From positions 1-64,000 of the IMG/VR virus record IMGVR_UViG_3300050021_000713: a stretch of DNA of 64,000 bases, one strand, 5' to 3'. This DNA comes from a virus. The notes beneath the pieces were generated by a model. That model was not told the origin of the DNA, ran no database searches, and saw nothing but the letters and a program-made list of their open reading frames with translations. The position numbers and the translations under genes are program-made. This document shows positions 10,586-64,000 of this stretch, in pieces (position 1 is the stretch's first letter; the number at the start of each line of letters is the position of its first letter).

Positions 10586-10598
10586 CCAAGGAAGTACA

Positions 10599-10844
10599 AT
10601 GGCTCTCACCACGGAACAGATCGAAAAGGTCAACCAGGTCCTCAAGAACAAGCTCAACGTCGGTGCAGACAAGCTGGTCCCGACCGCGGACATCGTCGAG
10701 GATCTCGGCGCGGATTCGCTGGATCAGGTCGAGATCATCATGGCCCTCGAAGACGAACTCAACATCGAGATCCCAGACGAGACCGCGGAGAAGATGAAGA
10801 CGGTCCAAAGCACCTACGACGTGCTCAGCTCGCTGCTTTCATAG
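10599..10844 (+). CDS. acpP: acyl carrier protein
   Basis: 81 residues, the usual ACP length. The D-S-L phosphopantetheine site is intact (Asp39-Ser40-Leu41), in the context E-D-L-G-A-D-S-L-D-Q-V-E, followed by the acidic recognition helix and I-P-D-E as in FAS-type ACPs. It should carry acyl (or other) groups on a 4'-phosphopantetheine arm added by a PPTase that is not seen in this window. AAGGAA precedes the ATG. Neighbours encode enzymes that could make the CoA donor of that arm. Confidence 0.92.
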   Translation: MALTTEQIEKVNQVLKNKLNVGADKLVPTADIVEDLGADSLDQVEIIMALEDELNIEIPDETAEKMKTVQSTYDVLSSLLS

Positions 10845-10872
10845 CAGCAACCACGTTAGGAAGGACACAACG

Positions 10873-12051
10873 ATGTCAGCACTGCTTCAGACGGTACCTT
10901 TCTTTCAGGATCGACACAGCTACATCTACACCGATGTGCTACGGTCCTACTCCGAGCCGTGGCGGCATTTCCACACCATCAAGCACGTTGAGAACATCCT
11001 GCTACGGATCCGTGCTTACGTCGACGATCCGGCCCAGCATGAGACCGGCGAGACCGCGGCGGAGAACATCAACCGCACCCGAGCGTATTTGTTCGCGGCT
11101 GTGTTCCACGACATCGTCTACGAACCTTGGTGCACGGTGCCGGGCAAGAACGAGGCCGAGTCGATCCTGGTCCTGTACCGGCATCTGGAGCACATCGAGT
11201 CCGCGGAGGTACTGCAGATGGCTGCGGATTTGATCCGCGCCACCGGGAACTTGAGCTACGACGGCGGCGATGAGTTCACGAATCGCTTCCTTCTCTGGGA
11301 CCGGGCCTGGATCCTGCAAGCACGCACTGTTACGGACCTGATCCGGAACGGGCATCGGATCTGGCAGGAGTACTCGTTCCACCCATATCACGACTTCGTG
11401 GACGGGCACATGGATATTGTTTCCAAGGTGTACTGGAACAGTCGCGTCTCAGTTGACGATGTTTACGTCGACAAAGAGACGATCGAGGCCTACGGCCAGT
11501 ACCTGCAGAACCGGCGACCACGGTTGGCGCTCTACCCAGGGTCGTTCAACCCATATCACATCGGCCACTCCTACATCGCCGCGCAGGCCCAGGCCATGTT
11601 CGACAAGGTGGTGATCGCCACCGGTGTGAACCCGAGCAAGCTGCCGATGTACAACGCCTGGGGTATCATCACGCCAGAACGTGTTGGTCGTGGGAAGTCG
11701 TCGTGGGTGCCACGAAACTTGCTGATGGACGACAAGAGCAATCAGAACTACGAGCATGTGGAATTCGCAGGCATGCTCTCGGATCTGGTTCGTGACTTCA
11801 CCGACCTTGGTTACGACGTTGTGGTGGTCAAGGGCATACGCAACGCCGCGGACTTGGAGTCGGAGATGGTTCAGGCCGAGTTCACGCGCGCCGACAATCC
11901 GGAAGTGAAGTACGCGTACATTCCGTGTCCGGCCGCGCTTGCTCACATCTCCAGCTCCGCGATCCGCACCTTGAAGCAGTTCAGCAAGAACTACGACGAC
12001 TACATCGCCGCCATTACCGACAACGTCGAACAACAGCCGACTCCTGTATGA
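10873..12051 (+). CDS. HD phosphohydrolase - phosphopantetheine adenylyltransferase fusion
   Basis: 392 residues. N-terminal domain (about 1-205) resembles COG4339-type HD hydrolases: H32-F-H34...H38, F-H79-D80-I-V-Y and a later W-D-R-A. C-terminal domain (about 215-385) is a CoaD-type nucleotidyltransferase: Y-P-G-S-F-N-P-Y-H-I-G-H with the (T/H)xGH site, K-G-I-R-N-A-A-D-L-E-S-E-M as in CoaD's R-G-L-R...D-F-E-Y-E, and I-S-S-S-A-I-R matching the ISSTxIR motif. CoaD makes dephospho-CoA from phosphopantetheine and ATP. An NMN-type adenylyltransferase is the main alternative. AGGAAGGA precedes ATG 10873; the stop overlaps the next ATG. Confidence 0.82.
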   Translation: MSALLQTVPFFQDRHSYIYTDVLRSYSEPWRHFHTIKHVENILLRIRAYVDDPAQHETGETAAENINRTRAYLFAAVFHDIVYEPWCTVPGKNEAESILVLYRHLEHIESAEVLQMAADLIRATGNLSYDGGDEFTNRFLLWDRAWILQARTVTDLIRNGHRIWQEYSFHPYHDFVDGHMDIVSKVYWNSRVSVDDVYVDKETIEAYGQYLQNRRPRLALYPGSFNPYHIGHSYIAAQAQAMFDKVVIATGVNPSKLPMYNAWGIITPERVGRGKSSWVPRNLLMDDKSNQNYEHVEFAGMLSDLVRDFTDLGYDVVVVKGIRNAADLESEMVQAEFTRADNPEVKYAYIPCPAALAHISSSAIRTLKQFSKNYDDYIAAITDNVEQQPTPV

Positions 12052-12704
12052 GGGCGCGGGACCTGGTCGTCGTCTGCGGAAAGATCGCGAGCGGGAAGTC
12101 GCGGGCGTGCGCGGACGCGATCAAGGAAACTGACTACCAGGTGTTACAGCTCGATCGCCTCGCCGTGCATCTACGGCTGCACAACGACGAGTTTCGGAAT
12201 GAATTCCGGACCTGGTGTATCGCGATCGGTCTCGAGCATCGCGATCGAGCGCCGGACGTCGACCGTTTCTTGTTCTCGAACATTTTGTTCAATCAGTTCG
12301 CACAGGACTCAGGTTTCCGATTCTTCCGTGCGTACCTGGACATCCAACGCCCGTACCTGCAGTACCACCTGGATCAACTGATCGCCGAAACACCGGCGCT
12401 CATCATCGAGGTTGCTGTTCCTCCGATCATGACCGGGCTCAAACTGCCGCCGCACCGCGGGTTCATCGTCGACGCCGGACTCAACGCCGAGGAGCGTGTC
12501 GCGCTTGTTCAGGCTCGAGGCTCGGCGATGACGGCACCGTTCATTCGAGGCATGTTGCGCTACCAGGAACAGCTGTTTGCTGGATACAACGGCGTCTTGT
12601 GTGGTCTACGCGGTTACGAAACATTCACATCCTACGACGGCAAGGACTGGGTGCCAGGCGACATCTGGGCCTCACGATTTCAACTGCACGGGAACCATCT
12701 ATGA
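12048..12704 (+). CDS. P-loop kinase, possibly dephospho-CoA kinase-like
   Basis: 218 residues with a Walker A G-K-I-A-S-G-K-S at 11-18, close to the N-terminus as in small-molecule kinases, and Q-L-D-R-L after the next strand. Dephospho-CoA kinases (CoaE) have G-G-I-G-S-G-K-S here and similar length. Position directly after a CoaD-like protein favours that reading, but lid and substrate motifs of CoaE are not clear, so a nucleotide, tRNA or other kinase is possible. ATG overlaps the upstream stop, and its own stop overlaps the next start: strong translational coupling. Confidence 0.6.
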   Translation: MRARDLVVVCGKIASGKSRACADAIKETDYQVLQLDRLAVHLRLHNDEFRNEFRTWCIAIGLEHRDRAPDVDRFLFSNILFNQFAQDSGFRFFRAYLDIQRPYLQYHLDQLIAETPALIIEVAVPPIMTGLKLPPHRGFIVDAGLNAEERVALVQARGSAMTAPFIRGMLRYQEQLFAGYNGVLCGLRGYETFTSYDGKDWVPGDIWASRFQLHGNHL

Positions 12705-13255
12705 ACGACAGCTACAAGCCACCGTTGGAGATCGAACGCAAGTACATCGTGCTTCAGGACGCCTGGCGGAGCTTTCCGATCCAGGAGTCGATCGGAATCT
12801 ACCAAGGGTACTTGACCGCTCCGACCATGGACGTAGACGACGGAAACAAGGCTACGGTGCGAGTTCGCTTGATCAACCACGCCAACACCGCCTACGTCAC
12901 GGTCAAGGGTCGTGGTGAGGACGACATTTCGCGCGCAGAATTCGAATACGCGATCCCACATCAAGATGCTCGGTACATGCTCGAGCACTTGTGCGGCGGC
13001 CGTGTGGTGAAGAAGACCCGTCACGTTATCCTGGCCGATGAAAGCATGCCGGGATTGAAGTGGGAAGTCGACGAGTTCCATGGTGAGAACCACGGTCTTG
13101 TGGTCGCCGAGATCGAGATTCCGGATCCGAACTACTCGGTGTCCTGCCCGATCTGGATCAAGGGTGAAGCGACGAAAGCTGAGTACAAACGGTTGTCGAA
13201 CTTCCAGTTGGCGGTTCGCCCGTTCGCGGTGTGGCCCGAGGCCTGGAAGCACTGA
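12701..13255 (+). CDS. CYTH-domain triphosphatase
   Basis: 184 residues. Opens with L-E-I-E-R-K-Y, the ExExK signature of the CYTH superfamily (triphosphate tunnel metalloenzymes), then Y-Q-G-Y-L, V-R-V-R-L, V-T-V-K-G and the acidic pair V-A-E-I-E-I-P near residue 135. Such enzymes hydrolyse inorganic triphosphate, thiamine triphosphate or nucleoside triphosphates; bacterial members of this size are often tripolyphosphatases. ATG overlaps the kinase stop (ATGA). It ends the module that starts with GluRS. Confidence 0.85.
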   Translation: MNDSYKPPLEIERKYIVLQDAWRSFPIQESIGIYQGYLTAPTMDVDDGNKATVRVRLINHANTAYVTVKGRGEDDISRAEFEYAIPHQDARYMLEHLCGGRVVKKTRHVILADESMPGLKWEVDEFHGENHGLVVAEIEIPDPNYSVSCPIWIKGEATKAEYKRLSNFQLAVRPFAVWPEAWKH

Positions 13256-13256
13256 C

Positions 13257-13571
13257 GTGGACACCGGTAACGGAACCATCGAGATCAAGCTCACGCTGTC
13301 CACAATCAGGCAGGCGTCGGCGTTTCTGGCCTTCATGGAAGCCAACGGCATCGACGCGCACATCAGCGCCCGCGCCAGGTCCGAATACGTGAAGGGTGAA
13401 CCGGCTCCGTCTCCAGAGGTTTACGCCGCGGAGCGTGTGCTGCAGCGTGGTGGCCTCCGTGTCTACGAGCCGCTGCAGCAGAGCGAGGGCGGCGCGGCCG
13501 TACACCAGATGCTCGGCGGTGCTATGCTGACTTCACGACAGCGCCTTGAAGTTCGTACAGTCGGTGCGTGA
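13257..13571 (+). CDS. hypothetical protein, 104 aa
   Basis: GTG 13257 begins one base after the CYTH stop. About residues 7-40 form a beta-alpha unit (I-E-I-K-L-T-L-S-T...F-L-A-F-M-E-A-N-G-I-D-A). The middle is basic, the C-terminus flexible. No family recognised. It may be the last gene of the GluRS transcript. Confidence 0.6.
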   Translation: MDTGNGTIEIKLTLSTIRQASAFLAFMEANGIDAHISARARSEYVKGEPAPSPEVYAAERVLQRGGLRVYEPLQQSEGGAAVHQMLGGAMLTSRQRLEVRTVGA

Positions 13572-49039: not shown

Positions 49040-50611
49040 ATGAAGAAGTCACACGAATGGTTGGAAGGGATCCTGAACGATCCGAAGTTCCGCGAACGCG
49101 TACAAGCTGTCGTAACATCGGCTGACACGTACTTGGCTTCTCAACTCGCGCGGAATCTGATGCAGCTGCGCAACGAACAGCGCACGAACGCGTACAAGCA
49201 GATCTTCGCCGCACGTACCAAGGTGTCCGAGGACCTGTTGGCGCTTCAAAACTCACTGAGCGCGTTGATCCACTACTCCGCCGTGGCCGGCGAGGACGCG
49301 AACGTTTTCATCAACCTGCAGCGTAGCGTGGTCACGGTGACGCAGAAGCTCTCCGTGTTCGGTGAAGAGGATGTGGACGGCGACGGCATGCGCGACTCCC
49401 AAGCCCAGGCCCCGGGCACACCCGCGGACCCGGCCGCAGCCGGCAACCCGGAACGGAACCTCCCGTCCCTGGACATGGACGTGGATCGGGCGCCAATCGC
49501 TCCGGACAATCAGCCCGAGCCAAAAACCGTGCTTCCAGCCGACCAGGTCCAGCAGGATCCCGACGATGTGACCGACGAGAACGCGACCACACCGTCTGCA
49601 GACGGCCAGGAAGTCGCGGCACCAAACGAAGCAGCACCGGCTGACGAAGCTGGTAACGCCGAGGAGGACGCGCCGCGTGACGCTGTGGCCCCAGCTGCTC
49701 CTGCAGCTCCTGCACCTGGTGCCCAGCCGGAACAGGAAGGCTTCGACACCGGCGACGATGAAGGCGAAGCTCCGGCCGAAGAAGGCGCTGCTCCTGCTGA
49801 CGGCGAGAACCCGGCTCCGGAAGAAGAGGAAGACGAGGATTCGGACACCAAGGCGCCGGAGGAACAGGAAGTCGTCGACGACAAGGACAAGCTCCACCAG
49901 GAGTTCGGCCGCCTGGCCCAGAAGGGTAAGAAAGGCAAGAAGGGTCTGTTCGAGTCCCTGACCGACCCAGCGCTCGACGCCAAGCCTGGCGAGGCCGCGG
50001 CGTCCGTCGCCGAAGCCAAGCAGACGGTGAAGGAGAAGAATTTCCGGTTCGTGTACCGCGGAATCCGCGGTGGTTGCGTGAGTGCGATGATCACGAACAA
50101 GGTGTACTACTTCCAGCCCACACCGAAGCTGTACGGCGGCGATGTGAACAAGCTCGACGTCGCCTTGCGCAAGCACTTGGAAACACATCCTGGTTACGCG
50201 AACGCGCTGACGATCTTGAACCAGCTTCGTACATCCGGGAAGCTGCGGATCATCCGTCGGGTCCAGTTGTCGAAGCAGCAGCTTCGCAAGATCCTGCACG
50301 CGCCGGAGCAGAACGCACACGCGCAGCTGGGCTCGATCAAGTTCGACGAAGGCACGGCCTGGCGCTACCGCGGCGTGGGGTTGCAGAAGATCTCCAACCA
50401 AGAAGCCGCGATCTGGTTCGAAGTCGGTGACACAGAATACGCCGTGCTCCCGAACAAGAAGGTGTACGGGGACAAGGACATCGAGGACGTGAATGGCGGG
50501 ATCCAGCAGAAGCTGAAGACGCTCAGCTACACCGACGGGTTGAAGTACCTGGTGCGCCTGGTGCACACCAAGCACCTGACGCCAATCTACCAAGGCAAGA
50601 TCGTCGCTTGA
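49040..50611 (+). CDS. virion-associated protein with acidic disordered centre
   Basis: 523 residues. Helical N-terminus (1-110), an Ala/Pro/Glu/Asp-rich disordered centre (about 115-285), a Lys-rich patch, then two related domains: F-R-F-V-Y-R-G-I-R-G-G (about 335) and A-W-R-Y-R-G-V-G-L-Q-K (about 435), each followed by V-Y-Y-F-Q or Y-A-V-L-P-N-K-K-V-Y-G and a helix. A scaffold or internal head protein is possible. TTG of the terminase overlaps its stop. Confidence 0.55.
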   Translation: MKKSHEWLEGILNDPKFRERVQAVVTSADTYLASQLARNLMQLRNEQRTNAYKQIFAARTKVSEDLLALQNSLSALIHYSAVAGEDANVFINLQRSVVTVTQKLSVFGEEDVDGDGMRDSQAQAPGTPADPAAAGNPERNLPSLDMDVDRAPIAPDNQPEPKTVLPADQVQQDPDDVTDENATTPSADGQEVAAPNEAAPADEAGNAEEDAPRDAVAPAAPAAPAPGAQPEQEGFDTGDDEGEAPAEEGAAPADGENPAPEEEEDEDSDTKAPEEQEVVDDKDKLHQEFGRLAQKGKKGKKGLFESLTDPALDAKPGEAAASVAEAKQTVKEKNFRFVYRGIRGGCVSAMITNKVYYFQPTPKLYGGDVNKLDVALRKHLETHPGYANALTILNQLRTSGKLRIIRRVQLSKQQLRKILHAPEQNAHAQLGSIKFDEGTAWRYRGVGLQKISNQEAAIWFEVGDTEYAVLPNKKVYGDKDIEDVNGGIQQKLKTLSYTDGLKYLVRLVHTKHLTPIYQGKIVA

Positions 50612-52671
50612 TTCGGAAGAAGCACACCGACGCCGATCTTCTCGGCGTCATCGATCCCTATCGTATCCACGATGAAGAGGACGAGTACAACCCGGAGAAC
50701 CTGCTGGATCAAGTCGAAGTTGCGTTGCGTAACAACTTCGACACCCGGCTCTCAGGCATGTTGGACGAACGGCAGATCCAGCGGTACGCGAATTTCTACG
50801 AGTTCGCGCGTCGTGGTTTGAACATCGCGCCGTTTCCGAGGCAGCTGCAGGTGATCATGCAGTCCTACGGCGAGATCTGCATGTTCTGCTCCGACCACGA
50901 CACAGCGTTGAACATGTTCGACCAGGACATGGACGTGATCTTCGACAAGGTCAAGTTCATGCGCTACGGCGTGTGCCCGGAATGCAAGCGCACGCGGCTG
51001 GACATGATCCGGAACCGGCTCTGGGAGTACCCGAACCGGATCGCACTGCTCGTCGGCCAGCGCGGTGGCAAGAACATGACATTGGGCATGGCCAGCCTGT
51101 ACCAGGACCATCTGTACCTGACGCTGCAGAACCGGGACGGGAAGCGCGTGAGCCCATACGAGTACTTCGGGTTGCTGCCGACGTTCGTGCGCCAGGCCTT
51201 CACCGGTGTGACCGCCCAGCAGGCCTTGGATAACATTTGGGCGCAGATCGTCTCCCTGCGCAACGAGAGTTCCTGGTACAAACAATACCACGAGTTCCTG
51301 GACTACAACGGCAAGCGCATGGGCCAGGAGTTGTACAAGGTCTCAGACACGTTCATCGCCTACAATCACAAGCGCATGGGCTCGACGATCAAGACCCCGG
51401 ACAAGCGCAAACTCCGTGGTGCGACGCGGTACTTCACCGCGATCGATGAAATCTGTTGGTTCAACAACACTCTGTCCGAGTCCGCGGAAAAGAAGGTCGG
51501 CGACGTCCGCGAGGTCTGGGTGTCGTTGAACAACTCCCTTCGTACGATCCGCAACGAAGCGGATCGGATGATGCGCGCCGGCATCTACGACTGTCCGAAC
51601 GCGTACTCGATGGACATCTCCAGCCCGTTCGACGTCAACGACATCCTGTCCCAGATCCTGCGCGAAGCCAAGACGAACAAGCGCATTCAGGTTGGGCACT
51701 ACGCCACCTGGGAATTCAACCCGCGTTACACCCAGGAGTCGCTCGCGGAAGAGTTCGTCAAGGATCCGGAGATCGCCTGGCGTGACTTCGGCGCCATTCC
51801 GCCGCTGTCGAACCAGCCGTGGATCTCGGAGCCGAAGGCGGTCATCGACATCGTACGCAAGACCCGGGATCCAATCCAGGTCACGTACAAGATCAAAACC
51901 AGTGTCAACAGCTTCGGCGACCGCACGATGTGGTTCGAACTTGGTATCTGCAACCTCGCTGGTGCTGGCCGTGTGATCGCCTTGGACAACGGACTGAGCA
52001 ACAACGCGTTCGCCTGCAGCATCGGCAGCATCGAAGCCGGTGGGAAGACGCGCATAGACACCACGTTCATGCTCAAGCCATCGCCGACGTGCAAGATCAA
52101 CCTGGACAAGATGTGGACCGACTTCGTGTTCCCGTTGGTCAAGGCGTCGAAGGCGGTCATCGTCGTGTACGACCACTGGGCGTCGATCCAGCACGTGCAG
52201 CAGCTGCGTGACATCGGTGTCGACGCCCGGCAGCATACGTTAACACCTCTCAACTTCAACGCCATGCGCGCATCGATCTTCTCCGGCACGGTTTCGTACC
52301 CGTTCACGGAGTTCTCGTTGGCTCCGATCCTGGACCGGTCCGCGGATGTGGACCTGATCGCGACCGCGCAGGACAAGCCAAACTTTTCGTTGGCGCTGCA
52401 GACACTCACCGTGCGCGAAGTCGGAGGCGGCAAGGTGGTCAAGCCGAAGTACGGAGACGACGACGTCTTCCGTACCGCGGCGTTGGTGCACGCCATGGTA
52501 GCGGATCCGGACGTGGCCAAGAAACTCATCCTCGGCGGCCTGGCCAACGGGTTGCAGCAGGCGCGACGTACCATGGGTTTCGTCAACGGGTTGAGTTCTG
52601 GTGCAACTCCTAGTGGAGGAAACGGAAGGATCGCACACATGCGGTCGATGTCCGGGTCCTCCAGACGCTAA
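50608..52671 (+). CDS. terL: terminase large subunit
   Basis: 687 residues. ATPase: variant Walker A L-V-G-Q-R-G-G-K-N-M near 149-158, Walker B F-T-A-I-D-E-I near 277-283. Nuclease domain: V-I-A-L-D-N-G (about 455), V-I-V-V-Y-D-H-W (about 515) and a final D-D-V-F-R-T-A-A-L-V-H. Two C-x2-C pairs near 94 and 118 add a zinc site. It packages DNA through the portal and cuts it. The start is TTG 50608, overlapping the upstream stop (TTGA), which implies coupling. Confidence 0.9.
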   Translation: MIRKKHTDADLLGVIDPYRIHDEEDEYNPENLLDQVEVALRNNFDTRLSGMLDERQIQRYANFYEFARRGLNIAPFPRQLQVIMQSYGEICMFCSDHDTALNMFDQDMDVIFDKVKFMRYGVCPECKRTRLDMIRNRLWEYPNRIALLVGQRGGKNMTLGMASLYQDHLYLTLQNRDGKRVSPYEYFGLLPTFVRQAFTGVTAQQALDNIWAQIVSLRNESSWYKQYHEFLDYNGKRMGQELYKVSDTFIAYNHKRMGSTIKTPDKRKLRGATRYFTAIDEICWFNNTLSESAEKKVGDVREVWVSLNNSLRTIRNEADRMMRAGIYDCPNAYSMDISSPFDVNDILSQILREAKTNKRIQVGHYATWEFNPRYTQESLAEEFVKDPEIAWRDFGAIPPLSNQPWISEPKAVIDIVRKTRDPIQVTYKIKTSVNSFGDRTMWFELGICNLAGAGRVIALDNGLSNNAFACSIGSIEAGGKTRIDTTFMLKPSPTCKINLDKMWTDFVFPLVKASKAVIVVYDHWASIQHVQQLRDIGVDARQHTLTPLNFNAMRASIFSGTVSYPFTEFSLAPILDRSADVDLIATAQDKPNFSLALQTLTVREVGGGKVVKPKYGDDDVFRTAALVHAMVADPDVAKKLILGGLANGLQQARRTMGFVNGLSSGATPSGGNGRIAHMRSMSGSSRR

Positions 52672-53115: not shown

Positions 53116-53883
53116 ATGCACGTTTTCGAACTTGTCCAACTTGCCTACGCGGCGGAGCAGGTCCACGTAACCGTAAGGTACGCGAACGATTTGGTACAGC
53201 TGCACGCGCTCGCTGAGGCGAAGTACGAGTTCCTGGACCTCGTGTCCATGGTTTCAACCGGCTTCGACCTCAGCAAGCCCGAGGCAGAGCTGGTTCGAAT
53301 CATCAAGAGCACGGTCCTGAACAAGGTCACAACCGATGGGAATGTGATCTTCGCTGGCCGGCGTGCCGCGAAAGGCCCTGGAAGCTCGTCGGTGCCGTTC
53401 ACGGACTTCTTGAACGCTTGCAGTTTCGTCGAACCGTTCCGCTTCAGTGTCAACGACACCGAGAAACCGGCCTACCGCACCTCCAACTACCAGTTCGTCA
53501 TGATCTACGACACGCCGACTACTGTAGGCAGTATCGGCAAGGTCACGTTCGTCGAATTCAACACCCGACGCAAGATCTCGGGGTTGTCACTGCGGAAGCT
53601 GCGCGCGAACCTGGCGGAGTACGCGGAGAACGTTCCGAACGAACGCGGTGTCACCGGGTCGCAGAAGCGTACCGGTAACGCACCGTCGGCGGCAAAGGTC
53701 GCGCAAACCAAGGAAACGAGCGTCAACATTCCAAATCACATTCACAAACCTGTTGACCTCTCCGGCGCGCAAGGCAAGCGCTTCACCAGTTTTGAGGATC
53801 TCGGCTCATGCCTGCTCTCAGCGTTGCTCGTGCTTGCGCCGGCTGTGCTGTTCACGGTTCAACGACTTCAGTTTCGTTGTTGA
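53116..53883 (+). CDS. hypothetical protein with C-terminus replaced by TnpB insertion
   Basis: 255 residues as read, but the last 30 codons (from 53791) lie in an inserted element and give a hydrophobic, unrelated end. Codons up to 53790 end G-K-R-F-T-S; joining them to 55118 gives I-K-T-Y-R-A and TGA at 55136-55138, three bases before the portal GTG. The original product was thus about 231 residues. It is probably structural, between terminase and portal; no family recognised. Confidence 0.7.
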   Translation: MHVFELVQLAYAAEQVHVTVRYANDLVQLHALAEAKYEFLDLVSMVSTGFDLSKPEAELVRIIKSTVLNKVTTDGNVIFAGRRAAKGPGSSSVPFTDFLNACSFVEPFRFSVNDTEKPAYRTSNYQFVMIYDTPTTVGSIGKVTFVEFNTRRKISGLSLRKLRANLAEYAENVPNERGVTGSQKRTGNAPSAAKVAQTKETSVNIPNHIHKPVDLSGAQGKRFTSFEDLGSCLLSALLVLAPAVLFTVQRLQFRC

Positions 53884-53950
53884 TCGCTCAACAACCAGCG
53901 CCGATGTCTCCCCGTGCGTAGACACCAGTAATGGTGTCGGTTCAGGACAA
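53791..53950 (-). ncRNA. predicted omega/reRNA of TnpB (approximate ends)
   Basis: TnpB guide RNAs come from the 3' end of the tnpB transcript and run across the right end. The scaffold would end near 53791, and the guide would be the flanking + strand gene sequence just below 53790 read on the - strand (starting ACTGGTGAAGCGCTTGCC). The boundaries are inferred from the family, not read directly. Confidence 0.35.
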
Positions 53951-55077
53951 GCCGTCCCTACCTTGTGAATGACTGCTGCGGCCGCTTGATCGCGGTCCCA
54001 CTTCTTTCCGCAACTTGGACAGGCCCAGCTGCGTACATATAGTGGTAGCCGCTCTGGTGTCTTGTACCCGCAGTCCGGACATACTCCGGTGCTGCGCTGG
54101 AAGCGCGGGATCGCAACCACACTTCCACCACAAACTCTTGCTTTGTACGTGATATGGTGCCTGATTGCACCGAAACCAGAATCGAGAAGTGCGCCCGCGA
54201 TATTATGGTTACGCGCTAGTCCCGCACGGTTCATGTCCTCAATACAGACAGCACGAAACTCGTTCGTGATCCTGGTTGTCATCTTGTGCAAGGCATCAGA
54301 TCTGACGTTGGCTACACGAGCATGGACACGCGCGAGCTGCCTCTGCCTCTTGACAGCGCGATTGGACTTCTTCGCTCCCGTGCGTTTCCGCGCCTGTTCC
54401 TGGCGGCTGCAGCCGCGCTGTAACCGCTTCAGCTTCACTGTCGCCGCGCGTAGTGGTCTCGGGTTCGGAAACACCTGGGTACCATCCTGAAGTGGATGTG
54501 AGAGCACAGCCAAGTGCTTGATCCCGAGATCAATGCCTACAGACTCTTGCTGGTGCCGCACAGGAGTAATGTCCGACATTTCAACAGCGACACTCAGGTA
54601 CCATCGATCCGCGGTTCTGGAAACGTTACCGCTGAGTATCTTGCCTTGGAACCGAAGCTGCTCCCGCATACGCACAAAGCCGACGTGCGGTATCCGTACC
54701 CGCTTCTGCTCCAGCATGAACTGATCGTTCCATAGCGCGAAGCTGTCCCGGGATTTGTTCTTGCGCTTGAACTGTGGGTACCGGACCTTCCCGGTCCGCA
54801 AGCCGCGGAAGAAGTTCTGGAACGCAGTTCCAAGATCCAGCACAGCCTGGGCACCGGCGCACTTCGTAACCTCGTACGACCACGGGAACTCCTGGCGCCG
54901 AACCTGGTTCCATTGCGCTTTAAGTTTAGAGGCACTCGGCTTCTCTCCTGCGGCATGTTGCCGCTTCCACTCCGCAAGTGCCCAGTTGTATGCAAAGCGT
55001 GAGACACCGCACGCGCGATGGAAGTACGCGGCCTGTGCCAGCGTCGGATTCAAGGCTATGCGGTGGGAGAGGATCAT
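53818..55077 (-). CDS. tnpB: TnpB RNA-guided nuclease
   Basis: 419 residues from ATG 55077 (M-I-L-S-H-R); the longer open frame upstream runs out of the element. V-G-I-D-L-G-I-K supplies the first RuvC Asp, C-I-E-D-M-N the Glu, and W-D-R-D-Q-A-A-A the last Asp. A zinc finger C-P-D-C...C-P-S-C lies before it. N-terminal OrfB_IS605 helix-turn-helix pattern Y-F-H-R-A-C-G-V-S-R-F-A-Y-N-W-A-L. All catalytic residues present, so probably active. It is the only - strand gene I call. Confidence 0.92.
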   Translation of the reverse strand: MILSHRIALNPTLAQAAYFHRACGVSRFAYNWALAEWKRQHAAGEKPSASKLKAQWNQVRRQEFPWSYEVTKCAGAQAVLDLGTAFQNFFRGLRTGKVRYPQFKRKNKSRDSFALWNDQFMLEQKRVRIPHVGFVRMREQLRFQGKILSGNVSRTADRWYLSVAVEMSDITPVRHQQESVGIDLGIKHLAVLSHPLQDGTQVFPNPRPLRAATVKLKRLQRGCSRQEQARKRTGAKKSNRAVKRQRQLARVHARVANVRSDALHKMTTRITNEFRAVCIEDMNRAGLARNHNIAGALLDSGFGAIRHHITYKARVCGGSVVAIPRFQRSTGVCPDCGYKTPERLPLYVRSWACPSCGKKWDRDQAAAAVIHKVGTACPEPTPLLVSTHGETSALVVERSTTKLKSLNREQHSRRKHEQR

Positions 55078-55141
55078 GGATCTACTAAATCTAATCAAAT
55101 CATAACGTGAGAACAATATCAAAACATACCGGGCGTGACTT

Positions 55142-57325
55142 GTGCCTCCTCTGATGCGCGTAGGGAAGACGCCGGCCGGTTCGTACCTGAACCCGTTGGC
55201 GACGCCGCACCAACAGCGTACGATCGCGAGCGTGACCGGCAACGACGGTGCGACGCTGCAGCCTCGGAACTCGTACCGGCGTGTGCAAGGCTCGAGCTCG
55301 ACCACGGACCGGTACAATCCGGTTCACGAGAACCTGGCCGACAACTCCCTCATCGACGACATCACCCCGAAGTCGGACACGCAGATCGCCAAGCTCTTCG
55401 ACAAGATCTACCGCGACGATCCCGTGTCCGGTTCCGCTGTGGACTTCATCAGCAACTTCTCCTGGTCCGAGTGCACGCTCACCGGCATGCGGGATCCGGG
55501 GAAGATGAAACTGTTCCAATCCGCGCTGGAGATGTTCCAACCGGTTACGCGCATGCCGCTGGTTGAGTCCGAGGCCTTGCGCCAGGGCCGGGCGATCGCA
55601 ACCATGTTGTTCGACGAAGAGAAGCTGACCTGGTCGAATTTCCTGCCTTGGCCTGCAACATCGTGCGAGATCATTCCAAGCCCGATCACGGGCATGCTTC
55701 CGCTGATCGATGTCCATACCGACATGGACACGATGAACTACCTGAAGTCCAAGGACCCACGTGCGCTCCCGGGCCAGAAGGTGTACCCGGACAAGCTGCG
55801 CAAGGCCTTGTTGAGCGGCAAGGCCCAGCTGGATCCGTTGACGACGATGTTCATTCCCAGGCGCGTCTCCATGACGGACTGGAAAGGCACGTCGCTGTAC
55901 TGGCGCATTCTGCCATACTACGCGATCGAGAAAGCGTTACTGCAGTCCACGATCGCGAACGCCAGGCGTCGTACCCGTTCGATCCTGCACATCCAAGCCG
56001 GCATCGATGACCGTTGGGAACCTTCGGACGCCGAACTCTCGGATCTCACTGCGATGTTCGTGGCCACGGAAGAAGATCCCGCCGGCGCCGTGATCGCAAC
56101 CAGGAACGGCATCAACACCAACGAGATCCGCCAAGGTTCCGATCACTGGAAGATCTCGGAGGAGCAGGACAGCCTGCGCCAGGCCAAGCTGGCCGCCCTG
56201 GGTGTGTCCGACGCCATGATCTCCGGTGACGCGAACTTCAACACCGTCGACGCCACGATGACGATCTTCGTGGAATCGAAGAAGGTGTCTCGCGCCCACT
56301 ATACCAGGGAAGTGATCTACAACACCCTGTTCGCGCAGATCGCGCGCGTGAACGGCTTCGTCAAGACCGCTACATCGTCCGCTGACGCTGCACACGGTGT
56401 TCGTACAGGCGGCCGTCGCTTGGTTATGGCGACACCCAGCGTCGACGAGGCAATGAAGATCCCGCTGGATGAGCTGGACATGCCGCGCGTGCACTGGACC
56501 AAGAATCTGAGCCCGCAGTCCGACGCCGCGTACCTCGACGTTTTGGACCGCGCAACAGCCAAGGGCATTCCGGTGACGATGGCGATGTGGGCTTCGGCCT
56601 CCGGCATCGATTTGAACCAGCTCCAGGAGTCGCTACCCGACGACAAGCGATTGCGCGCCAAGCTGGCCAAGTACGCACCGGCACCAGCGGCCGACGCCGG
56701 TGGTGGTTGGGGTGGAGGCGGTGGTGGAGGCGGTGGAGGCGGTGCATTCGGTACCGCGGAACAGAACCGGCGCTTCGTGTTCGAGGCCGACTACTTGGGC
56801 CTGACCGCACTCGCCAGTGCTGTCGGTGTCGACGGTGACGGGAAGCTGCTTGGCTTGGGTGTGGAGGAGATCGTGGACTTCGCTGACGAAGTAACACGTG
56901 ACAATCGAGCCATGGCCATGCTCGAGGATTGGCCGGCACTGCACCACGCCATGCACGACCGCTTGGGTGAAGACAACAAGGTGGAGGCGATGAAGTTCGT
57001 CCTCAACCGTGCCGGCTACACCAAGATCCCGGTCACGGAAGTGATGCTCACCCGTGTCGCGGAGACCGTGGCAGCCACCGCACAGCGTGACGAGACCAGC
57101 GCCGCGCGTCTGGCCTTCCTTCGGGACGAACTGCTCATGATCGCGGAGATGTATGAACGCTCGCAAGTTGCGGCGCAATACAACACCGGAAGCTCGTACG
57201 CCAGCGCGAAACGTCGCGAACGTACCGCCGTCGCAGAAGTGAGTGCCCGGCGTACGCTCGCAGCATTCACAGGCCTGAACGACAAGCTTCCAGCACGACA
57301 GCTTTATTCGGGGTATACAGGATGA
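55142..57325 (+). CDS. portal protein
   Basis: 727 residues from GTG 55142 (ATG 55154 possible). Portal-type features: early S-L-I-D-D-I-T-P-K-S-D-T-Q-I-A-K-L-F-D-K-I-Y, G-S-A-V-D-F, then the R-T-R-S-I-L-H-I-Q-A-G block, W-E-P-S-D-A-E-L, and the S-G-D-A-N-F...T-M-T-I-F-V-E stretch found in myovirus portals. A run of Gly (about residues 519-536, two other residues inside) links it to a helical C-terminal domain. It forms the dodecameric DNA channel docking with the terminase. The upstream sequence was changed by the TnpB insertion, which may affect its expression. Confidence 0.82.
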   Translation: MPPLMRVGKTPAGSYLNPLATPHQQRTIASVTGNDGATLQPRNSYRRVQGSSSTTDRYNPVHENLADNSLIDDITPKSDTQIAKLFDKIYRDDPVSGSAVDFISNFSWSECTLTGMRDPGKMKLFQSALEMFQPVTRMPLVESEALRQGRAIATMLFDEEKLTWSNFLPWPATSCEIIPSPITGMLPLIDVHTDMDTMNYLKSKDPRALPGQKVYPDKLRKALLSGKAQLDPLTTMFIPRRVSMTDWKGTSLYWRILPYYAIEKALLQSTIANARRRTRSILHIQAGIDDRWEPSDAELSDLTAMFVATEEDPAGAVIATRNGINTNEIRQGSDHWKISEEQDSLRQAKLAALGVSDAMISGDANFNTVDATMTIFVESKKVSRAHYTREVIYNTLFAQIARVNGFVKTATSSADAAHGVRTGGRRLVMATPSVDEAMKIPLDELDMPRVHWTKNLSPQSDAAYLDVLDRATAKGIPVTMAMWASASGIDLNQLQESLPDDKRLRAKLAKYAPAPAADAGGGWGGGGGGGGGGGAFGTAEQNRRFVFEADYLGLTALASAVGVDGDGKLLGLGVEEIVDFADEVTRDNRAMAMLEDWPALHHAMHDRLGEDNKVEAMKFVLNRAGYTKIPVTEVMLTRVAETVAATAQRDETSAARLAFLRDELLMIAEMYERSQVAAQYNTGSSYASAKRRERTAVAEVSARRTLAAFTGLNDKLPARQLYSGYTG

Positions 57326-57867: not shown

Positions 57868-58551
57868 ATGCAAGCACAACAAACGATACAGAGAGCAGTT
57901 GACGAGGCCGAGGTCTCGGTTGACGTCAAATCGCTGTTGCGTGACGACGTCGCCAGGTTCGTCGTCTACTGCCTCGGTGTCGAGCGCTTGAACGTGCACA
58001 GCATGCGCAGTGCCTACATCCACAACTTCTCGGATTCCGCACCGCTGCTGCGCAAGGCCGTGGAAGCGGATTACACGATGAAGATCATCGGGTTCTACGG
58101 CAGCAACTACTTCCGGCTGTTCAACGAGCTCTCGGTCCGACCACACGTGCTCGTTCTCGGGGATCGGTTCCGGGCACCGTACGCGCCGGAGTTCAAGGAG
58201 TGGCTGCGTCGGAACAAACCCGCGGTGCTGCGGCTGCAGAAGCACCGGATCCCGGTGACGGCGTTGCCGAACTCCGACTACTACCTCGGCACGTACTCGG
58301 TGATGGCCACCGCCAGCGTTGTCGACCACAACGTGGTCAGCAGCGAGTTGGACTACGGCGCCTTGATCCACTTGAACTACTGCCGGTACATAACACTCGA
58401 CGACAGCGCTGTGATCGGGACCAAGCAAGAGAACAAGGAGCTGGCGTCGTTGCTCGCGTACGGCATGGACTGCGACAGCACGTTCACGACCGCGTTGTCG
58501 AACCACACGTTCTCACCACCGGTTCCCGAGGATGAGGATGGCGTCGCTTAG
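57868..58551 (+). CDS. hypothetical head/neck protein, 227 aa
   Basis: ATG 57868 has GGAAGG 9 nt upstream; GTG 57850 is possible but would place that sequence inside the gene. Mixed alpha/beta protein with many aromatic residues. It overlaps the next gene by 20 bases. No family recognised. Confidence 0.6.
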   Translation: MQAQQTIQRAVDEAEVSVDVKSLLRDDVARFVVYCLGVERLNVHSMRSAYIHNFSDSAPLLRKAVEADYTMKIIGFYGSNYFRLFNELSVRPHVLVLGDRFRAPYAPEFKEWLRRNKPAVLRLQKHRIPVTALPNSDYYLGTYSVMATASVVDHNVVSSELDYGALIHLNYCRYITLDDSAVIGTKQENKELASLLAYGMDCDSTFTTALSNHTFSPPVPEDEDGVA

Positions 58552-59509
58552 GCCATACCGTCCCGTCGTCGGCGGCGTCACCCGCAACGAACCGGACTAC
58601 GTCACCAGGACCAATACCGACCACCTGGTCGGTCGCGTGCGTGAAGTCGCGCAGGAGCTGGCGCTGCGCGCGGCGCAGAAGACGGACAACGCGTTGTCCA
58701 TCGACACCCGCTGGTTCTACTACTACCGCCGGCGCAACGTCGGCCGCCGGTGCTCGTGCGTGTCCGGAGAACAGGAGAAGGCCTCGGCGACCTGTGGGAT
58801 CTGCTACGGCACCGGTGTCGTCGTCGGTTACGACAAGTACGGGACCTGGACCGAGATCTTGGATTGCACGTACCCGGGTCTGGATCTGATCAACGTCGTC
58901 CAGCGCCCTGAGCCCAGGCCTTCGCGCTTGGTTCTGGATCCGGCCGCGACCAATGGTGTCGTGCAGGCCCGGATCCGACTGCGGCCGAACGCAGGCTACG
59001 TCGACAATCTCCATGTCGCTGCCTCCGGTGCGGTCACGATCACGATGCGGGCGGCGAATACCACGCTGTGGATCCCAGTGACCTCGGACAATCTCGTGAC
59101 GCTGCTGTCGGCACCGTACATCGATGTCCGGGTTCAGATGCACCGGTCCAGCATCCGGGAGCCGAGCCCGACGTTTTTGAAGCTGTTCATCCGCTACGGG
59201 TTGCTGCCGGCTTCCGAGATCCAGCTCCCGGGCGACATCCCGCCGAACACGGAATCGATCTCGCTGCAGGAGTACGGATTCGACGAACAATTCGGCACCT
59301 TGAACTGCGTCATGGGCAGCGCCGGCCACGGCCGCACCAGCAAGATCACGACGTTCTCCAACGAAGACTTCCTGTTCAATCTCGAGCGCGGGCGTTACTG
59401 GAAGATCACGGAGGTGAAGCCGAATTACGCCTTGGGCGTGTACATGAGCTTCGACCTCACCGCGCGGTGGGTGCAGAGCTACGAAGTCTACAGAAGGTTC
59501 CCAACATGA
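58532..59509 (+). CDS. structural protein with DnaJ-type cysteine motif
   Basis: 325 residues. About residues 72-92 hold C-S-C...C-G-I-C-Y-G-T-G, a zinc-binding pattern also found in phage neck/connector proteins. The remaining 230 residues are beta-rich and end in a W-V-Q-S-Y-E-V-Y motif. Position after the portal suggests a neck or head-completion protein. Overlaps the next ATG (ATGA). Confidence 0.65.
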   Translation: MRMASLRPYRPVVGGVTRNEPDYVTRTNTDHLVGRVREVAQELALRAAQKTDNALSIDTRWFYYYRRRNVGRRCSCVSGEQEKASATCGICYGTGVVVGYDKYGTWTEILDCTYPGLDLINVVQRPEPRPSRLVLDPAATNGVVQARIRLRPNAGYVDNLHVAASGAVTITMRAANTTLWIPVTSDNLVTLLSAPYIDVRVQMHRSSIREPSPTFLKLFIRYGLLPASEIQLPGDIPPNTESISLQEYGFDEQFGTLNCVMGSAGHGRTSKITTFSNEDFLFNLERGRYWKITEVKPNYALGVYMSFDLTARWVQSYEVYRRFPT

Positions 59510-60014
59510 TCCGGAATGCACTCGCACTCGTACAGGCTGCAGCGGAAACCGTTCCGTCGGATTTGAAATCTGCGTCGGAGCGCAACGACGCTTTGCTGCT
59601 CGCGTTCAAGGAGAAGCTGTTCTACGGCGGTGGACGGTATGTCTTGTACGGATCCGACGGGAAGCACCTGCTCAATCTCGGTTTCGGTTTCAACAAGACG
59701 CCGCGCGGCGGTTGGAAAACTGGATCGTGGAGCTCACTCCAGACAGCTACGATTCCAGGGAAGAGCATGTTCCGGTTGGAGTCTGGCGACTGTTGCGGCA
59801 TGGCACCGGTCTGGTCCTATCCAGGTTCCAATCAAACACGTACAAGGACACGGTGCCGCTGGCAGCTTCGCACTACTACGACATTTCGAAGGCGGACGAC
59901 TACATGTCGATCCGACGCATGATCGCGAACAACATCTACAAAGAGATCATCCGGTTACGCGTGGCCGCAGGTCACGACGACATCAAGTACCAACACGTCG
60001 ACTTCTCCAGGTGA
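59506..60014 (+). CDS. leader-bearing virion protein interrupted by a -1 frameshift
   Basis: ATG overlaps the upstream stop. M-I-R-N-A-L-A-L-V-Q-A-A-A-E leader, then a single domain like those in the next two genes. At AAAA (59716-59719) the protein-like signal moves to the -1 frame (N-W-I-V-E-L-T-P...Y-Q-H-V-D-F-S-R) ending TGA 60012-60014; the unshifted frame continues to 59922 with Arg/Thr-rich nonsense. One more A would give about 169 residues. No good slippery heptamer is present, so an assembly error or mutation is likelier than programmed shifting. Confidence 0.65.
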
Positions 60015-60021
60015 CCAAAAC

Positions 60022-61947
60022 ATGATCACGAACGTCTTGCACCTGGTACAGTCCGCTGCGGAACCGAAGCCGAAGAATGCTGCGGTAATGTCGCTGCTGC
60101 GCCTGGAGTTCGCGTTCGAGAACGGAAGTGTATCTCGGAGCGACCTCAGCTTCCAGAGCTCTGGATTCAATGTCGAGGTGTACGAAACCCACGACGATGG
60201 TTCCATCCTGTTCTCGTTGACACGCCCCGGCGCCACGGAACCGATCGGTTACATCGAGCTGTTCTCCGGCTACGGTGCAATGCACCGGCAGCAGGGTTTG
60301 AAGAAGGCTACACCAGCGCTCGTTCTGTGGGATGCAACGAACGAGGTGAAGCTGCACACATTTGACGCTAGGCTTGTAGACCGGTTGCTGCGCACCAAAC
60401 ACGTGAGCACACGTGAACAGGTGATCCAGCTGTTCCAGGCGTTGCTGAAGTCCATGCTCCCGAAGGCTGCGGATGTCTTGGAAAAGCATGCCACAGCCGC
60501 GACGGAACCAGAAGTCGGAAACCCGCTCAGCTTCATGCGCAATCTGCGACGGCGACTGATCGAACATCCGGTCCAGATCCGTATCGGTTCCCAAGTCGTT
60601 GCGTTTTCAAGTAGTAGGCTTCAGTCCAATGGTTTGAACGTGTTCTACGTCGGATCCCGCACAAACCCAAGGTTGTTGGCTTCGGCTGGTGACCACTACT
60701 GTCTGTTCATGCCGCTGACGACGGTCCATATTCCTGTTGTTGAGCACGAGACCGCGCCTGTATTTCTGTTACGGGTGGCAAAGCTGTTCCTCGAACATCC
60801 AGAGCTGAACCGAGCCCGCGCTGCTGTGGAACCGGAACCACAGCACACCGACATCAACACCGTGTACCGGAACCAGATGGCTCTACACCGGGCAGCCGTG
60901 GCTGTCATCAAGACCGGTAGGAACGGTTCCTTTCACATGAATATCCGTGGCGTTGAGATTTGGCTATCGGTGTCGTTCAACTCCACCATCCACGCCGTGC
61001 TCATGTTACCTACGGGACAGCGCGACATCAACTTCTCACCGTCGGACTTCGCCGACGACAGCTTGATGTACACCGTTGAAGGTCACCACCCAGCGGTCCA
61101 GGTACCGAAGCGATACCAGATGAACGACGGAACGCCGAAGCAGTATCTGCAGCACCTGGTCGCGTTCGCGTTGGAGAAGCTGGCTCCGTCAGCAGAGGCC
61201 GCGGCAGAACCCGAAATACAGAAGGATCCTTGGGACGGCGTCAACACCGACAATCTACTCACGAGCCCGGTGCCGAAACAGAAGGTCCAGGTTGACGACG
61301 CCGTGGTCACGGTGCAGTCCACGGAGTACCAGCGCAAGCCGGCGTGGGAGATTCGAATTCAACTTCCGATACCGGGTCCGAAAAAGACTGCGACTGCTAC
61401 GTACCTGGTGAAGCTCGGGTATCCTGCTTCAGGTTCCGGGCAGCAGTCGTACTTGCTGATGTTGCAGACATCGAGCGGGTGCCGACAACGATTTGACTGC
61501 ACCTGGGCGGTTATCGATCGCAGGGTGAACACGGCGAAAAAGCTGATGCAAGAAGTCGTACGCGCCGCGGTGAAAGACTTCCAGCAGCTCCGGGCGAACG
61601 CGGTCTCGCGTTCGAAGTACGCGCACGGCGCCGCGGAGCCACAGCCGGAGAAGTTCGGCTGGGCGCAGGTTGAAGAGTACCTGGACAACACACCACCGCA
61701 TGAAGTACGGACGAAGGATGTGACGCTAGGGTACGATCCCGATCTCGACGATGCTCACCGTGTTTTCTTCGTCACCAGCGTTCCCGGGTGTGGTTTAGGC
61801 TACGTCCAGGATGCCGGAGATGGTCACGGGGTTCGGGTCTACGTCAACAACGTCTTCCGCACCACGGTACGGGTAACGTCGTTGCAGGATCTCCTGAAGC
61901 AGATCGACCGGTTGACGAAGGCACACGCGAAACGCCCACGGACATGA
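60022..61947 (+). CDS. multi-module virion protein with A-x-E separators (5 modules)
   Basis: 641 residues. Leader M-I-T-N-V-L-H-L-V-Q-S-A-A-E14. Further A-[ATV]-E-P motifs at Glu162, 270, 396 and 539 divide the chain into five modules of about 148, 108, 126, 143 and 102 residues. Each module begins with a Pro-rich polar stretch and is mixed beta/alpha, typically ending in a helix. The Glu-terminated motifs resemble the A/S-x-E sites cut by phiKZ-type prohead proteases. Interpreted as a head-internal or ejected precursor protein. It ends in an ATGA overlap with a second gene of the same design. Confidence 0.68.
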   Translation: MITNVLHLVQSAAEPKPKNAAVMSLLRLEFAFENGSVSRSDLSFQSSGFNVEVYETHDDGSILFSLTRPGATEPIGYIELFSGYGAMHRQQGLKKATPALVLWDATNEVKLHTFDARLVDRLLRTKHVSTREQVIQLFQALLKSMLPKAADVLEKHATAATEPEVGNPLSFMRNLRRRLIEHPVQIRIGSQVVAFSSSRLQSNGLNVFYVGSRTNPRLLASAGDHYCLFMPLTTVHIPVVEHETAPVFLLRVAKLFLEHPELNRARAAVEPEPQHTDINTVYRNQMALHRAAVAVIKTGRNGSFHMNIRGVEIWLSVSFNSTIHAVLMLPTGQRDINFSPSDFADDSLMYTVEGHHPAVQVPKRYQMNDGTPKQYLQHLVAFALEKLAPSAEAAAEPEIQKDPWDGVNTDNLLTSPVPKQKVQVDDAVVTVQSTEYQRKPAWEIRIQLPIPGPKKTATATYLVKLGYPASGSGQQSYLLMLQTSSGCRQRFDCTWAVIDRRVNTAKKLMQEVVRAAVKDFQQLRANAVSRSKYAHGAAEPQPEKFGWAQVEEYLDNTPPHEVRTKDVTLGYDPDLDDAHRVFFVTSVPGCGLGYVQDAGDGHGVRVYVNNVFRTTVRVTSLQDLLKQIDRLTKAHAKRPRT

Positions 61948-64000
61948 GCAGCGCACTCGATCTCGTGCGCGCGGCCGCGGAGCCGGCGCCGAGCACAAGA
62001 ACACCTAGTCAGGCCTTCGATGCTTTGTGCGCGGAGTTGCGGAATCGCGTGATTCGGATCCAGCACGGGCAGTACAAGGTGCAAGTGTTCTTGATCCAAT
62101 TCCCGTCTATCCAGGTTCGATCCACGGCCTGGGAGAATCCAGATCACTCTGTAGTCACGGGTTTGCGCATCTCCAGATCCGGGCGCGGAACGTACCCGAA
62201 GCTGAGTGCGGTTGCTAACGATGCCCTCGCCGAGTACATACCCGGTGACATCCATCGCGGTGTCAGCACCTGGCAGGATCTTTTGCGCAACGCCGTCAAC
62301 CTTTCGATCCGGTACGCGGAGAAGGAACACCGGAATCTGGTGCGGATGCAGAAGCTGAATGCACGGTTGAACCGTCCAACAGCAGCTACGGAGTCGTTGT
62401 TGCATGACGACCTGCATCGGTCTACACCAAGTGACAGTCTGCGCAAGCGCTTGAGCCGGCTCGGGAATGGCCGTGTTTTCACCTACAAAGGACACCGGTT
62501 CCAAATTCAAACCTACGGGAACGATGATTCCTGCGTCGTCTTTCCACGGCCTCCGTTTCCTAACGCCAACAACGCCGAGAACGTGCAGTGGATTCTGTAT
62601 CAGGACCACTACGCTCCTGGGCCGGAAAAGGACCGGTGGCTGAAAGACAAAGGTCCGTTGAGCGCGGTGCCGCGACACACGTTTCTACAACCGAAGGTCG
62701 ACACCGGGCGCGGCCATGCGGCTTCTTCGGTACTGAACGAGCGACAGCACTGGATCGAGGAAGCAGAGCTGAAGACCGATCGTGATCTTGTCCTGGCCTT
62801 GCTCAAGAATTCGGAGCCGCTACTACGCGGTCACGGATTTCGCATCAAGCCCGGCGCAGCTACAGCCGCCGCAGAACCTCTGTTGCATAACGACTTGCAC
62901 CGTGAAGTGAATCGTGCCGCGTACGACATCACAACTAGAACCCGGAATGACTGGCGCGGGCGTCGGTTCCTTGAACTCTCGCTCGTTGACTTTCCCAGGA
63001 GCAGCAACACCTGGATCTATCGAGTGTACACCGATGACGGTCATGGCAAGCATCGGTTTACGTTATACCAAATCCGTCGCGTAGGCGCAGGTAAGGAGCT
63101 TGTTGGGCATACCTTGAATCGAGACCGACCGCTGCGTTCTTTCGCGGAGTTGCTGAATGCTGCTGTGGAGTACTGCGTCAACAGCACCGACAAGGCACGC
63201 GGTGTGACCGCAGCTGCGGAACCACAGCCGCCACAGGAGCCGGCTCCTGTGGATCTGCTGAAGATGGCAAAGCTGCCGGAGAAGACGTTCCACGTCAAAG
63301 GACTTGAAATCAAGGCCCGCAGCAGCGAGTACAATTCCAAGCCGGTTTGGTCCTTCGTTCTCGAAGGCCGCGAGGAGCGGAAGCCGCGCACGTTCATTCT
63401 ACGGTCCGACTACCACCAGCGTGGAACCCGCTACGAGCTGATCCTAGGCGACCCGGGTTCGCGCGAGCAGGGTGTTGACTGTTGGGAGATCCAGGATCCG
63501 CGGGTTCGGACACCGAGGCAGTTGCTCCAGGTAACAGTCGAAGCCATTGTCAAACTCGAGCTCTCCTGGTTGTCCGTGTTGCCACCGGACCACCCACATC
63601 GCCGCGGCGTGACCGCCGCTACAGAACACACGGACTTGAACGACATGAGCCTGGGGCAGATGTTCATGTACTTGTACCGGAAGAGCAAGAGCAAGCCCGC
63701 GGACGTGAAGATGGATGGACATCGGTGTCACATCCGTTTCAACGACGTGTACTCGGCTTGGGTGTGTCTGGACGATTCGGACATGAAGACCGTGCTTTTC
63801 AGCGTCGACAACCTCCACCACCGTGTACGTGGATTGGAGCCGGTGCTGCGCATGCATCTTAACGGCAGCAACATCCAGGAGCTGCTGTGGCAGTCGGAGT
63901 TGCCGCGGAATCCACAGGCGTTGATGCAGCGCATGGTCGCGGAGTCGGTGAAGTTCCTGGAGACGCGCGGCGCGACAGCAGCCGCGGAGCCTGTAGTCGA
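61944..64000 (+). CDS. multi-module virion protein with A-x-E separators (continues past window)
   Basis: Open to the window end (685 codons seen). Leader M-S-S-A-L-D-L-V-R-A-A-A-E13. A-[AT]-E motifs at Glu150, 311, 426, 561 and 682 split it into modules of about 137, 161, 115, 135 and 121 residues. Two of the separators are followed by the same L-L-H-D/N-D-L-H string (after 150 and 311), showing internal duplication. Residue after Glu is Pro in four sites, Ser and His in the others. Same inferred role as the 60022 protein; the true length is unknown. Confidence 0.68.
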   Translation, partial: MSSALDLVRAAAEPAPSTRTPSQAFDALCAELRNRVIRIQHGQYKVQVFLIQFPSIQVRSTAWENPDHSVVTGLRISRSGRGTYPKLSAVANDALAEYIPGDIHRGVSTWQDLLRNAVNLSIRYAEKEHRNLVRMQKLNARLNRPTAATESLLHDDLHRSTPSDSLRKRLSRLGNGRVFTYKGHRFQIQTYGNDDSCVVFPRPPFPNANNAENVQWILYQDHYAPGPEKDRWLKDKGPLSAVPRHTFLQPKVDTGRGHAASSVLNERQHWIEEAELKTDRDLVLALLKNSEPLLRGHGFRIKPGAATAAAEPLLHNDLHREVNRAAYDITTRTRNDWRGRRFLELSLVDFPRSSNTWIYRVYTDDGHGKHRFTLYQIRRVGAGKELVGHTLNRDRPLRSFAELLNAAVEYCVNSTDKARGVTAAAEPQPPQEPAPVDLLKMAKLPEKTFHVKGLEIKARSSEYNSKPVWSFVLEGREERKPRTFILRSDYHQRGTRYELILGDPGSREQGVDCWEIQDPRVRTPRQLLQVTVEAIVKLELSWLSVLPPDHPHRRGVTAATEHTDLNDMSLGQMFMYLYRKSKSKPADVKMDGHRCHIRFNDVYSAWVCLDDSDMKTVLFSVDNLHHRVRGLEPVLRMHLNGSNIQELLWQSELPRNPQALMQRMVAESVKFLETRGATAAAEPVV

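Follow-up and report, generated by a model that had tools for sequence, protein, structure and literature searches.

Repeated A-x-E motifs in leader-bearing proteins beside the head genes of an uncultured large phage: putative substrates of a prohead protease

The analyzed window comprises the first 64,000 bases of a viral record of 65,499 bases, which continues 1,499 bases beyond it. The source is an uncultured large phage and the contig (65.5 kb) is a fragment of its genome. Genes 1, 2 and 3, here called string genes, adjoin the head-assembly genes and lie downstream of the genes for the terminase, the portal protein and then three other head-region genes (Table 1). The product of the gene immediately 5' of them is probably a neck or head-completion protein. 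The closest relative found is G001, a viral contig of 375 kb, which has the same gene order and, besides the identities given in Table 1, is 44-47% identical in the terminase and 43% in the sheath protein. Neither a head protease gene nor a major capsid protein gene was found on the 65.5-kb contig. Two other parts of the window may be mentioned here. The gene at 5822-6541 holds a copy of a portal segment (about residues 265-325; 50% identity over 46 aa), and a G001 gene (109450-109887) holds two copies of the same segment. By eye, a glutamyl-tRNA synthetase-like gene followed by an acyl carrier protein-like gene (GADSLDQVE) is seen at 9107-10844, near seven tRNA genes, which is unusual in a phage.

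Table 1. Coordinates of the string genes, their modules and neighboring genes. A slash marks the putative cut after Glu.
Feature	Position	Strand	Remarks
Terminase large subunit	50608..52671	+	context
Gene 0	53116..53883	+	255 aa; leader MHVFELVQLAYAAE/Q, Glu codon 53155
TnpB-like protein	53818-55317	minus	Pfam: OrfB_IS605, Cas12f1-like TNB and HTH domains
Portal protein	55154..57325	+	41% identity to portal of G001
Gene immediately 5' of string genes	58538..59509	+	G001 orthologue at same place, 42%
Gene 1	59506..60014	+	one module; leader MIRNALALVQAAAE/T, Glu codon 59545
Gene 2 (P0001)	60022..61947	+	641 aa; leader and five modules
Gene 2 leader	60022..60063	+	MITNVLHLVQSAAE; capsid-targeting-like
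Module 2.1	60064..60507	+	ends ATAATE (Glu162)
Module 2.2	60508..60831	+	ends RAAVE (Glu270)
Module 2.3	60832..61209	+	ends EAAAE (Glu396)
Module 2.4	61210..61638	+	ends HGAAE (Glu539)
Module 2.5, C-terminal	61639..61944	+	
Gene 3, window part	61944..64000	+	
Gene 3, complete on record	61944-65306	+	1120 aa; leader and modules 3.1-3.7
Gene 3 leader	61944..61982	+	MSSALDLVRAAAE
Module 3.1	61983..62393	+	ends PTAATE (Glu150)
Module 3.2	62394..62876	+	ends TAAAE (Glu311)
Module 3.3	62877..63221	+	ends TAAAE (Glu426)
Module 3.4	63222..63626	+	ends TAATE (Glu561); paralogue of 2.4
Module 3.5	63627..63989	+	ends TAAAE (Glu682)
Module 3.6, start	63990..64000	+	runs to Glu967 (codon 64842 on record)
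Module 3.7	after Glu967 to stop at 65306 on record	+	

Leaders of 13-14 residues that end in AAE are found in four genes (0, 1, 2 and 3). Over 14 residues the leaders of genes 1 and 2 share 10 identities, those of genes 1 and 3 share 8 and those of genes 2 and 3 share 6, and the other N-termini compared on the contig have at most 6 identical residues per pair. The hydrophobic moment is high in the leaders of genes 1-3, with only 3 to 7 of 50 genes higher. The leader of gene 0 is a weaker match to the others (4-5 identical) and its moment is not high (23 of 50 genes higher). Gene 0 lies upstream of the portal gene; the TnpB-like ORF sits between the two, overlapping gene 0 at its 3' end, and gene 0 may be truncated. 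Gene 1 contains a frameshift near 59,700: past the leader and the first half of the gene, the coding sequence continues in the -1 frame. The frameshift lies in a G+C-rich stretch, in which inspection by eye showed no standard slippery heptamer; a real mutation, an assembly error and recoding are possible causes. The three consecutive genes with amphipathic AAE leaders of a preliminary description of this DNA are thus confirmed as to their high moments, with the qualification that gene 1 is frameshifted and that a fourth leader is present at 53116.

Proteins 2 and 3 repeat the leader motif along the chain, at Glu14, 162, 270, 396 and 539 in protein 2 and at Glu13, 150, 311, 426, 561 and 682 in protein 3, with Glu967 beyond the window edge; all positions listed previously within the window are correct. 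The stricter pattern AA[ATV]E[PSHT] occurs ten times in the two proteins (three in protein 2, seven in protein 3). This is far above chance, as shuffled versions contain on average 0.04 matches together and none of 5000 shuffles reaches ten, and no match lies in the remaining genes called upstream of 59,500 (0 in 16,481 aa). The proposed regular repeat of 100-160 residues holds for most sites. However, the spacing is not uniform, with 285 residues from Glu682 to Glu967, and one match to the loose pattern A-[ATV]-E-[PSHT] falls off the regular spacing, at Glu73 of protein 2 (GATE/PI). Therefore, the loose pattern by itself is not diagnostic.

The 12 sites of proteins 2 and 3 and those of genes 0 and 1 form a set of 14 sites, which places the same motif both after leaders that have no domain before them and between modules. 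All 14 have Glu at P1 and Ala at P3, an invariance that is partly by choice, since the sites were picked by motif; the enrichment given above is independent of this choice. Furthermore, P1' is Pro in ten sites and P3' in seven, P5 is Thr in half of them and P6 is Ala or Val in 12. The codons for P1 and P3 have zero entropy at codon positions 1 and 2, whereas the third-position entropy across the 14 sites is 1.79 bits for Ala and 0.99 bits for Glu. Since the third codon positions vary while Glu and Ala are fixed, the peptide is under selection, and the spread of synonymous codons shows that the sites did not arise by copying of one recent DNA repeat.

The modules between the sites are mostly different from each other. 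Modules 2.4 and 3.4 are clearly related (z 16), but no sequence relation was detected between other module pairs by pairwise scores and left-out profiles, and the earlier suggestion that all modules are homologous as one family is not supported. With a motif sampler, a pattern around RVxTxxxLLxxxVxxxVK was seen towards the end of several modules, and one shuffled set of 20 exceeds its score; it is no more than suggestive of a shared C-terminal helix pattern. The model of module 2.4, made from two sequences (mean confidence 71.5), has a six-strand sheet and a long C-terminal helix. Its site-bearing tail (residues 134-143) has a confidence below 50, and the tail is thus predicted to be unstructured and to follow a folded domain. 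The single-sequence model of the whole of protein 2 is poor (mean confidence 39), with helix, strands and helix in alternation. No module had a match above cut-off in Pfam, PHROGs or NCBIfam, or in the PDB by sequence, so that the term 'arsenal' used previously goes beyond the data. Nor did the fold search with module 2.4 give a match with E <0.001; a Pur-alpha-like fold was dropped because its matches were insignificant. A self-processing peptidase domain was not recognized in the string proteins, and no homologs of proteins 2 and 3 were found in the phage records, viral contigs and species genomes searched.

At the equivalent place G001 encodes different large proteins with other linker sequences. 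One of these (656 aa) contains related units in tandem, joined by linkers that include NEAEA and NEATAATE. Both phages thus seem to have modular proteins at this position, although not the same ones. EATAS occurs four times in four genes of G001 and [ED]A[TE]A[SA] five times in the 656-aa protein, which is suggestive of E-A-[TE]-A as the motif of this phage. In G001, the genes for a head maturation protease and a major capsid protein lie some 70 kb upstream of the portal gene, with a separate gene in the scaffold position between them; a head maturation protease is also encoded by other relatives. Hence, the search for a prohead protease recommended in the preliminary description was negative for the 65.5-kb contig and yielded a T4-type head maturation protease in relatives. 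At the putative end of its N-terminal propeptide, the capsid protein has SADE/A in G001 and GADE/A in G002, both compatible with A-x-E. Among 36 other portal relatives, no comparable repeated Glu motif was found within about 10 kb after the portal gene, which implies that the strings are special to some members and not general in the group. G001 also contains many scattered paralogous large genes that start with VGFEFEF or CGFEAEF (128226-130946, 213939-226704 and others). Separately, a leader LxxALAxAGVxHxxV, possibly a targeting sequence, is present at several of its protein starts (189174-190623, 197961, 258394, 259404) and is repeated within the 656-aa protein.

An analogous arrangement exists in a group of cultured Pseudomonas putida phages with complete genomes (Pori-4, Amme-1, KoPa-5, Illi-2, SKa-4, Aura and Peetri; the Pori-4 group), which is more distant than G001, with a terminase only about 27% identical to that of the window phage. 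The gene order in this group is terminase, portal, two large proteins, head maturation protease and more large proteins. The modular proteins, annotated as hypothetical, adjoin the head protease gene and have a repeated x-E-T-A-S motif. ETAS occurs five times among the 226 called genes of Pori-4, where shuffles average 1.4. Four occurrences are in three genes after the portal (one in a 730-aa protein, two in the next gene and one in a 672-aa protein), and the fifth is in the N-terminal part of the major capsid protein at Glu67 (QVE/TAS). These would be the cleavage sites, with the capsid cut putatively at the latter. When the seven sister phages are compared, entire blocks (about 75-250 residues each) are present or absent in the two proteins whose genes precede that of the protease. 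The block boundaries come from non-independent pairwise comparisons and may reflect perhaps five underlying events; 49 of the 52 lie at most 13 residues from an ETA site, whereas about 15% of randomly placed positions come within 12 residues of one. Modules are thus gained or lost at the ETA motif between sisters, and this arrangement is, by analogy, the key support for our reading of the window. In Pori-4 (9952-13268), two proteins share a module of about 99 aa (DFAKxLKKG...FDDGDVAE; 62% identical), which follows the leader MIKFVE in one and APAQE in the other, and a 464-aa protein seems to carry a related unit twice. An ADP-ribosyltransferase, considered by eye at about 10252-10750 (R, STS-like and ExE-like motifs), had no database support and is not put forward. 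Among the papers searched, none on the virion proteins of this group was found.

We propose, with moderate confidence, that the string proteins are capsid-targeted head precursors that are cut after Glu by a prohead protease of the T4/phiKZ type. The N-terminal leader of 13-14 residues would be the capsid-targeting sequence, and at head maturation the protease would cut after Glu in [VA]-x-A-A-x-E. These cuts, located in unstructured linkers, would remove the leader and release domains that are mostly 100-160 residues long; the domains would remain with the DNA and probably be ejected along with it. As there is one leader per string, a single targeting signal could bring in several proteins at a fixed ratio, and the cut sites would allow modules to be gained or lost. 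The T4-like scheme would then be extended from one cut to up to seven per chain. We infer cleavage, packaging, ejection and function. The selected A-x-E peptide, the portal and neck context, the protease of relatives and the Pori-4 analogy give partial support to the cleaved head precursors of the preliminary description. Several points speak against this reading. The contig has neither a protease nor a capsid gene, proteins 2 and 3 had no homologs in the collections searched, G001 has different proteins at this place, and the 36 other portal relatives show no comparable motif in the 10 kb or so after the portal gene. The P1' residue is also atypical: serine proteases usually tolerate Pro poorly at this position, and SPN3US favors Ser there, which is a preference and not a rule. 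More tentatively, the phage may follow a polyprotein strategy, in which different small proteins behind one leader are freed in the head, modules are gained, lost and swapped between phages, and the motif marks both where the chain is cut and where modules recombine.

The prolines could also mean that the chains stay intact. The string proteins would then be uncleaved multidomain proteins with A-A-x-E-P-x-P as Ala/Pro-rich flexible linkers, and the leader would be a targeting or docking helix on a similar linker. Pro at P1' and P3' is typical of extended linkers and atypical for serine-protease sites, and the extra A-T-E-P at Glu73 would fit a linker as well. However, nothing in a generic linker requires Glu and Ala to be invariant at fixed places while the third codon positions are free, and the same motif also follows a leader of 13 residues. 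We regard this alternative as less likely. If cleavage does take place, the bond may be a neighboring one such as T-A/A, which would avoid the unusual Glu-Pro bond; Thr-Ala is common beside the motif and in the Pseudomonas relatives (E-T-A-S). Yet none of the four leaders contains Thr-Ala, P5 is variable where Glu and Ala are invariant, and the proteases of T4, phiKZ and SPN3US all cut after Glu, which makes a shifted cut very improbable.

Cleavage after Glu does not in itself make the pieces cargo. In T4, core proteins are cut after Glu into several fragments that are mostly expelled (PMC9026906; PMC5694885), and if the string proteins were prohead core or scaffold proteins comparable to gp22, gp67 and gp68, their pieces would leave the head as waste. 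It seems improbable that they are, as the pieces, 100-160 residues long and predicted to fold as sheet plus helix, do not resemble scaffold and G001 has its separate gene in the scaffold position. From this size and these predicted folds, we infer that the pieces are kept and not expelled.

Prohead proteases are already known for trimming leaders and destroying scaffold. If the proposed cleavage is correct, dividing one chain into folded cargo would bring the logic of viral polyproteins inside the head of a DNA phage. Annotators could then split large hypothetical proteins into real mature units, and the protease motif of a phage would be predictable from its internal repeats. The idea can be put to the test in cultured Pseudomonas phages, which have the analogous arrangement.

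Polyvalent proteins of phages and conjugative elements also hold several domains per chain and are predicted to be packaged and delivered, and DarA and DdrB of P1 are processed (PMC5512222). They differ in carrying recognizable enzymatic domains, whereas none was recognized in the window modules. With T4, the phage group of the window shares a T4-type set of head assembly genes. Leaders of 10-20 residues direct T4 proteins into the head and are then removed (PMC5694885; PMC9026906), and the T4 internal proteins cut by gp21 (IPI, IPII, IPIII and Alt) likewise have a short leader ending in Glu that is common to otherwise different proteins. Once the leader is off, they are single polypeptides, in contrast to up to seven modules per leader in the window proteins. 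The string proteins would work like such capsid-targeted, protease-processed head proteins of the T4 type and are candidate members of this class. The known proteases cut after Glu in L/I-x-E (T4), S/A/G-x-E (phiKZ) and A-x-E (SPN3US) (PMC9026906; PMC5694885; PMC10052503), and the A-x-E motif of the window thus differs from that of T4. It is shared with the head proteins of SPN3US and phiKZ that are cut by gp245 and gp175, ATE and AVE included, and cutting by the SPN3US protease at A-X-E includes ATE (PMC10052503; PMC5694885). In these two phages Ser is preferred at P1', as opposed to mostly Pro in the window proteins. Several cuts per chain are documented for SPN3US, but the multiple cuts in SPN3US and phiKZ chop long propeptides that are then discarded, whereas the window sites part domain-sized units. 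The Pori-4 group differs in its motif, in modules that are non-homologous by sequence and in its distant terminase. Still, it resembles the window phage in the gene neighborhood, in the repeated Glu motif between modules and in the gain and loss of modules at this motif, which is also present in the Pori-4 capsid protein.
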